NCBI RefSeq assembly: GCF_020023995.1
Contig: NZ_NRRD01000013.1
Location: 29,572-93,571 of the forward strand
Source: Rhodobacter sp. TJ_12
GTDB lineage: Bacteria > Pseudomonadota > Alphaproteobacteria > Rhodobacterales > Rhodobacteraceae
Direction of reading: 5' to 3'
DNA: 64,000 nucleotides
The first letter of the stretch is position 1. The number at the start of each line of letters is the position of its first letter. The notes beneath the pieces were generated by a model, which saw only the letters and a program-made list of their open reading frames with translations, searched no databases and had not been told where the DNA came from. Shown here piece after piece: positions 32,613-62,761 of this stretch. A program made the translations under genes and the position numbers.

Positions 32613-32674
32613 AACGGCTTAACGCTTGCGCAAGGTGGTCATGCCATGGTGACGCAACTTTGCGCGAGCCCTTC

Positions 32675-34084
32675 ATGACCCAGACCGACTCTTACGCTTC
32701 CGATTCTGCCCAGACCGCGGGCCGTGTCGACCGCATCGCCCAAGATGCGCTGCTGCTTGGCCGCGATGTGGCCGAGGTGGCGGGCGCGCTTGATGCGCTT
32801 GAAAAACACATCGATGCGCAAATGCGCCTGTTGCGCGATGCGCAATCCTCTGCCGAAACGGTGCAAGATGCCAATGCCCGGGTGATGGATGGCGCCGAAC
32901 GGGTCAGCCGCTCGGCGGATGTGACGCTGGATCTGGTCGAGGGCACGGTGGCGCAATTGCGCGAAACCAGCACCCATGCCCAGACCATTGCCGCCTGGGT
33001 GCGCGCCGCCATCGCAAGGATGGAGGAAATCAACGCCACGCTGATCAAGGTGCAGGCCGAAAACGCCGAGATCAAATCTGTCTCGAAACAGGTCAACATT
33101 CTGGCGATCAACGCAAAAATCGAGGCCGCCCGGGCCGGCGATTCCGGCAAGGGCTTTGCCGTTGTGGCCGAGGCGATCAATGAGTTGTCTCACAAGACCG
33201 CCGCCGCCGCCGATGGGATCGGCACTGCGGTGGGCGGGCTAAGTGCCTCGGTCGGGGCGCTGCATGACGAGGCCGGGGCCATTTCCAACGATGCCGAAGC
33301 CGTGCTGACCGGGGCTGCGGGCACCGATACCGCGCTGGGGCGCATGGTCGAGGGGCTGAAAATGACGCGCGGAGCGGTGAGCGATATCACCGCGCGCGCA
33401 GGCGAGGTGAACACCGCCAATGCGACCTTTGCCCCCGCCTTCCAGCGCATGGCCGATAGCATGAGCAGCACCTCCACCGAGGTGCATCAGGCCGCCGAAA
33501 AAACCCAAGCGCTGATTCTGGCGGGCGAGACCATCGTGCAAGAGGCGGTTGAGCTGGGTGGCGCCACCACCGATGACACGTTTATCCGCGCCGCACAGGA
33601 GGCCGCGACCGAAATCGCGCAAATTTTCGAACAGGCGATTTCCAGCGGCAAAATCACCACGGGCAAGCTGTTTGACAGCCGCTATGCGCCGATTGCCGGA
33701 ACCGACCCCGAGCAAGTGATGGCCCCCTTCACCGAGTTCACGGATGCGGTTTTGCCCGAGGTGCAAGAACGGATGCTGACGCTCTCGCCCGATATCGTGT
33801 TCTGCGCGGCGGTGGATCGCAACGGCTATCTGCCGACGCACAACCTGAAATTTTCGCAGCCGCAAAGCGCCGATCCGGTCTGGAACGCCGCCAACTGCCG
33901 CAACCGGCGGATCTTCAACGACCGCGTCGGCCTGCGCGCCGGGCAATCGACCGCGCCCTTCTTGTTGCAGATTTACCGGCGCGACATGGGTGGCGGCGAA
34001 TTTGCGCTGATGAAAGACCTGTCGGCCCCGATCTTCGTTGCCGGGCGGCATTGGGGCGGGTTGCGGCTGGCCTATCGAATGTAG
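32675..34084 (+). CDS. Soluble methyl-accepting chemotaxis-type transducer with C-terminal sensor
   Basis: 469 residues from ATG 32675 (a TTG 15 bases upstream is weaker). No membrane segment. Helical throughout 15-325, with the signalling hairpin tip at about 133-172 ([20 protein letters not shown] then [17 protein letters not shown]). The C-terminal 330-469 part is a separate mixed alpha/beta domain with [25 protein letters not shown] and [17 protein letters not shown], which looks like a Cache/PAS-related sensor. A cytoplasmic cluster receptor for an internal signal is the best guess. Confidence 0.88.
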
Positions 34085-34140: not shown

Positions 34141-34177
34141 AAAACAAAAAAACGCCGCCATCGCGGGGATGGCGGCG
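34141..34177 (-). terminator. Rho-independent terminator for the leftward ligA-recG-small protein unit
   Basis: Perfect 10-bp stem CGCCGCCATC / GATGGCGGCG with a five-base loop; on the minus strand it is followed by seven T, G and four T. It therefore ends leftward transcription, not the chemotaxis gene on the plus strand. 135 bp beyond the 40-residue gene. Confidence 0.88.
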
Positions 34178-34311
34178 CAGGCATGCGCTTTCGGGTAAAC
34201 CTAGGGACAGGCGCCGCGAGCGTTGGGACAGTCGGCGGCAAAGCGCGAGGCAGTGAACAGGTGGGCCAGAACATCGGCCCGAACAGGCAACTCGTCACAA
34301 AGGCAAAAGGA

Positions 34312-34434
34312 TCAGAAAAGACCGGGCAGATAGAGCACGGCCATAAAGGTGACGCACAGCGACAGCGCCCCCAGCGCATCTTGCACCAATTCGGCGGTGT
34401 TCCGGTCGGCAATCGTGTTCAAGGCGTGGCGCAT
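34312..34434 (-). CDS. 40-residue membrane protein behind a LexA-type box
   Basis: ATG 34434 with a good AAAGGAGAG site, TGA at 34312-34314. The first 18 residues are polar helix (MRHALNTIADRNTAELVQ), the last 20 a single hydrophobic segment containing LSLCVTFMAVLYLPG and ending in GLF, so a one-pass inner-membrane peptide is predicted. It lies 72 bp after recG and before a strong terminator, and an SOS box is centred about 62 bp before its start. In Caulobacter the SOS-induced SidA is likewise a tiny one-pass membrane protein, which blocks division. Homology is not claimed. Confidence 0.72.
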   Translation of the reverse strand: MRHALNTIADRNTAELVQDALGALSLCVTFMAVLYLPGLF

Positions 34435-34488
34435 CTGTCTCTCCTTTCGTGTTGCCCTTTTGTTCTCACTTTATCGCCGCGCCGTCAA

Positions 34489-34503
34489 GAACATTTTGAG
34501 AAC
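34489..34503. promoter_or_regulatory. Alphaproteobacterial LexA (SOS) box
   Basis: Plus strand GAAC-N7-GAAC; on the minus strand this reads ATGTTCT-CAAA-ATGTTCT, a 7-base direct repeat with an 11-bp period. It matches the alphaproteobacterial consensus GTTC-N7-GTTC and sits 55-69 bp before the 40-residue gene, overlapping the recG stop region. LexA binding is inferred. Confidence 0.65.
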
Positions 34504-34506
34504 ATC

Positions 34507-38813
<4,307 letters not shown>

Positions 38814-39527
38814 TCAGGCGCTGGCCGCGATGCGACGATCCATATCGCCCTGATCAGGGTCACGCAGCACATAGCCACGGCCCCAGACGGTTTCGATGTA
38901 GTTTTCGCCGCCGGTGACTTCAGCCAACTTCTTGCGCAACTTACAAATGAACACGTCGATGATTTTCAGTTCCGGCTCATCCATCCCGCCATAAAGGTGG
39001 TTGAGGAACATTTCCTTGGTCAGCGTCGTGCCCTTGCGCAGGCTCAACAGCTCCAACATCTGGTATTCTTTACCGGTCAGATGCACAGGCTTGCCGGCAA
39101 CTTCCACGGTTTTCGCGTCCAGATTGACCGAGATTTTCCCGGTGCGGATGATCGACTGGGAATGGCCTTTGGACCGGCGGATGATCGCATGGATGCGGGC
39201 CACCAGCTCTTCACGATGGAAGGGCTTGGTCATGTAGTCATCGGCCCCAAAGCCAAAGCCTTTGATCTTGTTCTCGGTGTCGTCCGCACCGGTCAGGATC
39301 AGGATCGGCGTATCGATCCGCGCAAGGCGCAACTGGCGCAGCACGTCCAGCCCGTTCATATCGGGCAAGTTCAGATCGAGCAGGATCAGATCGTAATCGT
39401 AGAGCTTTGCAAGATCGATCCCTTCCTCCCCCAAATCTGTGCAATAGACATTGAGGTTGGCATGCGTCAGCATCAGCTCGATGCTGCGCGAGGTGGTTGG
39501 ATCGTCTTCAACCAACAAAATCCGCAT
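38814..39527 (-). CDS. ctrA: Cell-cycle response regulator CtrA
   Basis: 237 residues of the OmpR type. Receiver with acidic pocket VEDD, phosphoacceptor D51 in [10 protein letters not shown], and K in DDYMTKPF; output winged helix with [19 protein letters not shown] and [10 protein letters not shown]. The receiver and the recognition helix match Caulobacter CtrA closely. In Rhodobacterales CtrA is usually non-essential and drives motility, gene-transfer-agent and communication genes. The CtrA-type box at 39581 suggests autoregulation. Confidence 0.96.
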
Positions 39528-59319: not shown

Positions 59320-60180
59320 ATGATCTATGAAACGCGCGCAGATTGGTTGGCGGCAAGCCGCAAGCGGCTGCTGTTCTTTGGCATGTCGGGGCTGGGCAAA
59401 ACCCATGTGTCTTCGATGCTGCGATCTGCCCCCTCGGGGTGGTTTCACTACTCGGTCGATTACCGCATCGGCACCTGCTACATGGGCGAATATATCGCCG
59501 ATAACTTCAAGCGCGAGGCGATGAAGAACCCGTTCTTGGCGGAATTGCTGCTGACGGATTCGGTCTATATCGCCTCCAACATCACTTTCGACAATCTCAA
59601 ACCGCTGTCGACCTATCTGGGCAAACCCGGCAGCCATTCGAAAGGCGGCCTGCCGTTCGAAGAATATATGCGCCGGCAAAACCAGCACCGTCAGGCCGAG
59701 CAATCGGCGCTGATGGACACGACCTATTTCATCCACCGCTCGCGCGAGATTTATGGCCTGCCGCATTTCGTCTGCGACAGCGGCGGCTCGATCTGCGAGG
59801 TGGTCGATCCCGAAGACCGCGAAGACCCGATCTTGAAGGAACTATCGTCGAACCTGCTGATGGTTTGGATCGAGGGCAATGACGATCACACCGATGAATT
59901 GGTGCGCCGCTTCGACCGCGCGCCAAAGCCGATGTATTATCAGCCGCAATTTCTGGAAAAAGCTTGGCTGAAATACCGCGTCGAACGGGGCTTGAAGGAA
60001 GAGGAGGTCAACCCCGATGACTTTATCCGCTGGACCTATCGCCAAGCGTTGGAACACCGCCAACCCCGCTATGCCGCCATGGCGCGCAATTGGGGCGTGA
60101 AGGTTGCCGCCGCAGATGTCGCACTTGTGCGCGACGAGAAAGACCTTACATCGTTGATAGCCTCGGCTTTGCCTGCCTGA
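59320..60180 (+). CDS. Unassigned P-loop ATPase/kinase-like protein
   Basis: 286 residues from ATG 59320. Walker A GMSGLGKT at 21-28, so a nucleotide-binding fold. Conserved-looking stretches with no family I can name: YRIGTCYMGEYIADNFKREA, FVCDSGGSICEVVDPEDRED and a C-terminal LVRDEKDLTSL. Cytoplasmic. Only 40 bp before metA on the same strand, which suggests co-expression; a role in methionine metabolism is speculation. Confidence 0.78.
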   Translation: MIYETRADWLAASRKRLLFFGMSGLGKTHVSSMLRSAPSGWFHYSVDYRIGTCYMGEYIADNFKREAMKNPFLAELLLTDSVYIASNITFDNLKPLSTYLGKPGSHSKGGLPFEEYMRRQNQHRQAEQSALMDTTYFIHRSREIYGLPHFVCDSGGSICEVVDPEDREDPILKELSSNLLMVWIEGNDDHTDELVRRFDRAPKPMYYQPQFLEKAWLKYRVERGLKEEEVNPDDFIRWTYRQALEHRQPRYAAMARNWGVKVAAADVALVRDEKDLTSLIASALPA

Positions 60181-62131: not shown

Positions 62132-62761
62132 ATGGCGCAGGCAGGCATGGCAAAACAGGGCTATCATCACGGCAATCTGCGCCAAGCGCTGGTAACGGCG
62201 GCGCTTGAATTGATTGCCGCGCGCGGCCCGCAGGGGTTTACGCTGTCCGAGGCGGCCAAGGCCGCAGGCGTGACACCTGCCGCCGTCTATCGCCATTTCG
62301 CGGGCCGCGAAGACCTGATCGCGGAATGCGCGCGTCAGGGCTATGCGATCTTTGCCGATCTGATGGAACATGCCTGGAACAACGGCCAGCCCTCGGCGCT
62401 CGCCGCTTTTGGCGCGACCGGGCGCGCCTATCTTGCCTTTGCGCGCAAATTTCCCGGCCATTACATGGCGATGTTCGAAAGCGGGCTGTCGCCCAACCGC
62501 TCGCCCGATTTGGCTGCGGGCGCGGCGCGGGCCGAGGCGGTCGCGCTGCGCGCGACACAAGCACTTTCGGCCCATATCCCCGAACACCGCCGCCCCCCCG
62601 CAACTATGGTCGCCGCGCATATCCGCGCGCTAAGCCATGGTGTCGTGGAGCTATATGCGCGCGGCGCGCCGGGCGGGCAATCACCCTATTCGCCCGAAGA
62701 ACTGCTGGAAAGCGGGATCGGCGTCTATCTGCGCGGTTTGGGGTTGATCGCCCCGGATTGA
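62132..62761 (+). CDS. TetR-family regulator
   Basis: 209 residues. HTH: GFTLSEAAKAAGVTPAAVYR, then HFAGREDLI. C-terminal ligand domain with a WHG-like ALSHGVVELYARG. Start at ATG 62132 or 62147. Coupled to ppk2, so may control it. Confidence 0.88.
   Translation: MAQAGMAKQGYHHGNLRQALVTAALELIAARGPQGFTLSEAAKAAGVTPAAVYRHFAGREDLIAECARQGYAIFADLMEHAWNNGQPSALAAFGATGRAYLAFARKFPGHYMAMFESGLSPNRSPDLAAGAARAEAVALRATQALSAHIPEHRRPPATMVAAHIRALSHGVVELYARGAPGGQSPYSPEELLESGIGVYLRGLGLIAPD

Follow-up and report, generated by a model that had tools for sequence, protein, structure and literature searches.

The locus

The window analysed here, a stretch of 64,000 nucleotides from Rhodobacter sp. TJ_12 (contig NZ_NRRD01000013.1, positions 29,572 to 93,571), carries on its minus strand a 40-codon open reading frame (ORF; 34312..34434, ATG start) for a predicted single-helix membrane protein. 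The ORF is preceded on the same strand by GTTC-N7-GTTC, a box of the alphaproteobacterial LexA type (34489..34503; GTTCTCAAAATGTTC in the window). The original prediction had read this pair as an SOS-controlled gene for a possible division inhibitor. The analyses described below showed that the ORF evolves as a protein and that the box is real; they make control by LexA very likely and give the proposed role in division about an even chance.

The signals of the gene all lie on the minus strand. TTGACG, the presumed -35 element according to the sequence and an alignment of 112 loci, adjoins the box (34483..34488), and it is followed by a second conserved element, TGAGAACAAA-NNNN-CAAC (34451..34468; TGAGAACAAAAGGGCAAC in the window). 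The ribosome-binding site AGGAG (34441..34445) stands 6 nt 5' of the ATG, in agreement with the good site claimed originally. The box is embedded in the direct repeat ATGTTCT-CAAA-ATGTTCT, so that the extended seven-base repeat with a period of 11 bp, on which the original prediction partly relied, is present on the gene strand. The strong terminator ascribed to the gene exists as an intrinsic terminator (34152..34178, minus strand), with a stem of 11 pairs from 34178 to 34152 and then a T run, but it is more distant than implied, lying about 130 nt 3' of the stop codon. A second terminator-like site was found inside the upstream gene recG, and shuffled sequences average 1.1 such sites.

Distribution of the gene and evidence of coding

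A search with the single sequence matched the ORF in 18/18 genomes of the genus; R. capsulatus and R. aestuarii carry the gene, and the R. capsulatus copy is 68% identical. A profile of 40 relatives matched 343 of the 394 family genomes, which correspond to 342 of 393 genera at about one genome per genus. The named carriers include Rhodobacter, Sinirhodobacter, Paenirhodobacter, Leisingera, Ruegeria and Sulfitobacter, among others, and because of these names we infer that the family concerned is the Rhodobacteraceae in the broad sense (sensu lato). Within the order the profile matched 229/244 genomes and 97/100 genera, all of the matches listed belonging to this same family. Within the class only 9/385 genomes were matched, five from the family itself and four weakly (E 0.003 to 0.008). 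The four were rejected as homologues and read as chance, three of them lying inside frames of 234-317 codons and one having an internal stop, and the search of the 385 class genomes thus gave no credible match beyond the gene's own family.

The coding test was performed on 105 ORFs of 40 codons, among which 38 pairs with at least 72% identity were compared. The ratio of nonsynonymous to synonymous differences (pN/pS) was 0.34 in frame and rose to 1.15 and 2.07 when the frame was shifted. Since the ratio is low in the true frame only, the ORF evolves as a protein.

The search of protein databases returned 390 proteins at E up to 0.1, and the 120 listed ones are unnamed or called 'hypothetical protein'. 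NCBIfam assigned no family across 15 members and Pfam likewise none, giving one chance-level match in 1/15 members (E 0.18). No solved structure was matched up to E 10, and Rfam yielded no family, with a single match below the gathering score (mir-1891, E 0.43). The matches in PHROGs (1/40 members, E 0.025) and PADLOC (1/40, PycTM, E 0.0028) were set aside, as was the one in Pfam, as chance likeness of hydrophobic helices. A mobile origin was also rejected, the window protein, with which this search was made, having no match in phage or plasmid collections at E up to 1.

Conservation of the LexA-type box

Taken by itself, the box is weak evidence, because its core is near the chance level in the window and below the reversed control across the genome. 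The core GTTC-N7-GTTC occurs three times in the window versus 1.5 expected (about two in the original estimate), and three or more copies were found in 17/100 shuffles. The genome of 3.58 Mb holds 81 copies, versus 215 for the reversed pattern. The other two matches in the window, at 59839-59853 and 62366-62380, lie within long ORFs and look like chance.

Its conservation, on the other hand, establishes the box as real. We examined 122 loci from 122 genomes (sets of 18, 28 and 76), and GTTC-N7-GTTC was present within 150 bp upstream of the ORF in 120 of them in either direction and in 119 in the direction of the gene, versus 0/122 within 150 bp downstream and 0/62 at 850-1000 bp upstream. As the relatives are not independent, these counts were not converted into a probability. 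Inspected by eye, the two box-negative loci carry near-boxes: in L190 three copies of GTTC stand closer together, and in L213 one half reads GTTG. The original prediction had tied itself to the conservation of the ORF together with its box among relatives, and it is this joint conservation that the 120/122 loci display. The box was also present in 19/20 loci in which no recG end was detected upstream.

Promoter architecture and its occurrence at lexA and recA

The ORF has its own rigid promoter. The consensus of the 112 loci is GTTC-N6-GTTC-TYAAAAA-GTTC-TTTACA-N11-ATATGAGAACAAA-NNGG-CAAC; ten of the 122 loci were left out of the column counts, three without a box in gene direction and seven with fewer than 6/8 positions at the second element. 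The invariance of GTTC and GAGAACAA is partly due to this selection; no such selection acted on the TTC-T that follows the box or on the AAC with which the consensus ends. The -35-like hexamer is TTGACG in the window and TTTACA in most relatives. The distance from the box to the second element is fixed at 36 bp: GAGAACAA stands exactly there in 107 of the 119 loci with a box in gene direction, and 5 further loci match 6 or 7 of the 8 positions. From the end of the second element to the ATG there are 13 to 60 nt (median 23, 113 loci), and the columns past this element lose conservation within a few bases. A comparison of coordinates showed that the second element in the form TGAGAACAAANNNNCAAC occurs once per genome in 17/18 genomes of the genus, always at the gene, and the reversed sequence has 0 occurrences in these genomes. 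Many relatives have an additional GTTC, ten bases 5' of the main box (G, T, T and C in 95, 103, 96 and 96 of the 112 loci), which the window copy lacks.

The assignment of the box to the LexA type is borne out by its presence in front of the lexA and recA genes of this genus. It was found upstream of lexA in 13/13 loci in which the start codon was located (17 were examined, and the start motif was missed in 4), and GAAC-N7-GAAC stands at the same place in 16/18 recA loci. The recA promoters of two relatives (L261 and L262) deviate at no more than one position from the 33-base pattern GTTCTT-N19-GAGAACAA, and the second element there is a full GAAC-N7-GAAC. For this reason we read the second element of the ORF as a LexA half-operator, that is, a half-degenerate inverted box (GAAC-N7-CAAC) predicted to cover the -10 region. 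A plain -10 role would equally conserve it. At lexA itself, locus L049 (G000:C3) has two overlapping GAAC-N7-GAAC sharing a half-site about 30-60 bp upstream, and L123 and L126, from related genomes, have three such boxes.

Allowing one mismatch at most, we also searched for the pattern GTTCTT-N19-GAGAACAA in those 51 genomes of the family that the profile had not matched. It was found at 59 places, versus 38 for the reversed control, and most single-mismatch places are therefore chance. Among the 35 of the 59 places that were examined, 8 precede a hydrophobic ORF of 38-43 residues (in genomes G167, G264, G074, G072, G040, G317, G093 and G360) and 2 precede recA. The exact matches to the pattern also number eight, 5 standing before such an ORF, 1 before recA and 2 before neither. 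Reading of the eight diverged loci showed GTTC-N7-GTTC in all of them, and the equivalent of Asp19 of the 40-residue protein is Asp in 7 and Glu in 1. The promoter is thus a guide to the gene even in genomes whose copy has diverged too far for the profile. In the most diverged candidate (L238, in G264; 42 residues) nothing but the box, the Asp and the hydrophobic end is retained; this ORF may have replaced the gene instead of being homologous to it.

Features of the protein

The single hydrophobic C-terminal segment noted originally comprises 19 residues from position 21 with a mean Kyte-Doolittle hydropathy of 1.94, and a mean of at least 1.6 over 19 residues was found in 121/122 loci. AlphaFold2 predicted a single helix over residues 3-39, with a mean predicted local distance difference test score of 76.9 (11 sequences), and none of the 122 proteins has a charge after the helix. 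Among 104 distinct 40-residue relatives, Asp19 and Gly22 occur in 104/104, Leu34 and Pro37 in 102 and Leu26 in 98; as the profile was used to collect these proteins, selection accounts for part of the strict invariance. The conservation of these five positions suggests a specific partner.

Gene neighbourhood

Upstream on the minus strand lie recG (34507..36600), ligA (36597..38720), both identified with NCBIfam, and ctrA (38814..39527), a cell-cycle response regulator that matched NCBIfam NF045991 above the cut-off. The recG frame and the box GTTCTCAAAATGTTC are 3 bases apart. The order ctrA-ligA-recG-gene on one strand was found in the window and in 20/20 other genomes, which were chosen for their long contigs; the original prediction had placed the gene behind ligA-recG, and ctrA, which it did not mention, belongs to the same co-directional series. 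The recG end was detected upstream in at least 102/122 loci, a lower bound because at least one locus with recG-end-like DNA upstream, L014, escaped the pattern. Downstream, a convergent ORF (32660-34084, plus strand) has a long heptad-like region and by eye resembles a chemotaxis receptor, and no NCBIfam model matched the window stretch from 32675 on at E 1e-10.

Proposed regulation and function

Repression of the gene by LexA and its induction by DNA damage are very likely, because a conserved box stands in a rigid promoter, is shared with lexA and recA, and belongs to a promoter that finds diverged ORFs. LexA would occupy both sites, the box and the inverted GAAC-N7-CAAC, and shut the promoter, and LexA cleavage stimulated by RecA would open it. 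The predicted helix would span the membrane with its hydrophobic half (residues 20-39), leaving the N-terminus in the cytoplasm and almost no periplasmic tail. By analogy with known inhibitors, the Asp-Gly-Leu-Pro positions would then dock on a helix within the machinery of septal wall synthesis (FtsW/FtsI/FtsN), which would stay inactive until the damage is repaired.

Taken as a whole, the reading of the product as a LexA-repressed, damage-induced, single-span inner-membrane protein that would stop septum formation as SidA does is, in our assessment, evenly balanced between being right and wrong. Inhibition of the septum was chosen because tiny SOS-induced membrane proteins directed at FtsW or its partners recur in distant bacteria, because a tight promoter suits a product that needs silence in healthy cells, and because conserved in-helix positions suit a specific partner. 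A wider form of the same reading, to which we give slightly less than an even chance, is that the gene might be the missing SOS checkpoint of the Rhodobacterales: near-universal, single-copy and independently evolved, silenced by LexA through one of the most rigid promoters known, located beside ctrA, and acting with a buried Asp-Gly face on FtsW.

Several observations weigh against this interpretation. The role in division is assigned by analogy with SidA, YneA and SosA, which is the best analogy at hand. The profile found no match in 51/394 genomes of the family, and as 44 of these 51 have lexA, a genome with LexA need not have the gene; loss of lexA is ruled out by the same count as the cause of its absence. 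In two genomes (G317 and G360, drafts of 560 and 640 contigs) the promoter and the ORF are present and no lexA match was obtained. A scan for consensus sigma-70 promoters found none and assigned no -10 hexamer. The main text of the paper presenting the in silico list of LexA targets of D. shibae does not name the gene (PMC6473078). The net charge before the helix is positive in 58/122 proteins, zero in 41 and negative in 23, and since it is zero or negative in 64/122, the N-in topology is a weak prediction. Conservation along the helix peaks at 98 degrees, with p 0.016 at 100 degrees and 0.22 over any angle, and the latter value led us to drop helix-face periodicity as proof.

A product similar to TisB or DinQ, that is, an SOS-induced membrane-active peptide that lowers the membrane potential and adenosine triphosphate and slows the cell without being directed at the divisome, is an unlikely but serious alternative. 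It would share the size class, the one hydrophobic helix and the LexA-type control, and DinQ, a LexA-controlled peptide of 27 residues, is described as depolarising the membrane (PMC3567139). However, DinQ and TisB are kept in check by an antisense RNA acting on a long processed leader according to the same source, whereas in the present gene the second element ends 13-60 nt from the ATG, the leader columns beyond it are poorly conserved and Rfam gave only its sub-threshold match. The conserved Asp19, Gly22, Leu26, Leu34 and Pro37 also speak for a specific partner rather than for action on the membrane itself.

Of similarly low probability, in our view, is that the product is induced in the SOS response to regulate a different membrane protein and would in this way link DNA damage with the cell-cycle programme; CckA, the kinase in the CtrA phosphorelay, is one example of such a target. 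The constant order ctrA-ligA-recG-gene in the window and the 20/20 genomes fits such a role, as does the report, cited in PMC6473078, that LexA controls cckA in R. capsulatus. Partners can nevertheless hardly be deduced from gene order, the ORF is served by a promoter of its own, and for D. shibae the same source reports no LexA site at cckA (PMC6473078).

Much less probable again is that the gene is not controlled by damage, some protein other than LexA being the one that recognises the GTTC repeats. The imperfect second element and the two drafts that keep the promoter and in which lexA was not found could be taken in this sense, but the same box precedes lexA and recA in the genus, and two relatives have recA promoters that fit the 33-base pattern of this gene. 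That both the ORF and the box arose by chance, conceivable in that the core is expected 1.5 times in the window, is ruled out by the 343/394 family genomes, the pN/pS of 0.34 and the box at 120/122 loci upstream versus 0/122 downstream.

Under the preferred reading of a septum inhibitor, the gene would be one more case of tiny one-helix proteins against the septal cell-wall machine arising many times. In any case the family is unnamed and has no Pfam or NCBIfam model, and its sequence features point to an uncharacterised, nearly family-wide SOS gene. The open-licence literature gave no account of it, an earlier mention elsewhere being possible, and no description in the same literature was found of how the Rhodobacterales, which include the marine roseobacters, Rhodobacter and relatives of Paracoccus, stop dividing after DNA damage. 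The gene occurs in most of the genera examined and is short enough for annotation to skip, and the promoter pattern offers a sensitive way to diverged, otherwise invisible copies. As R. capsulatus and R. aestuarii are culturable carriers, the question is open to a short experiment.

Comparison with known systems

The operator of the Rhodobacteraceae recA gene is the closest counterpart of the promoter. Both combine a GTTC-type half with an inverted box in the pattern GTTCTT-N19-GAGAACAA, to which the recA promoters of two relatives conform with one mismatch or none, whereas the present promoter has CAAC as one half-site of the second box and a -35-like element immediately after the first.

Among the small membrane proteins, TisB and DinQ of Escherichia coli resemble the predicted product in having a single helix, fewer than 50 residues and LexA-type control, but they are described with antisense RNA and processed leaders (PMC3567139), unlike the short and poorly conserved leader found here. 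YneA of Bacillus, SosA of Staphylococcus and ChiZ of Mycobacterium are reported as SOS-induced small membrane inhibitors of division that act late, YneA binding FtsW (PMC13396833). A LysM domain outside the cell is present in YneA and ChiZ, and SosA has an extended helix (PMC13396833), while the present protein is almost without a C-terminal tail. DidA is reported as a damage-induced yet SOS-independent tiny membrane protein acting on FtsW or its partners (PMC4211646, PMC13396833).

SidA of Caulobacter crescentus, with 29 residues, is described as a LexA-controlled one-helix protein of the inner membrane that acts through FtsW (PMC4211646). The present protein is likewise tiny and alphaproteobacterial, with a predicted single membrane helix and a LexA-type box, and it is likened to SidA by size, helix and control; it differs in its 40 residues and in a family-wide spread with an unusually conserved promoter. 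Tiny LexA-controlled one-helix blockers of FtsW or FtsN appear from these reports to be a recurrent solution (PMC4211646, PMC13396833).
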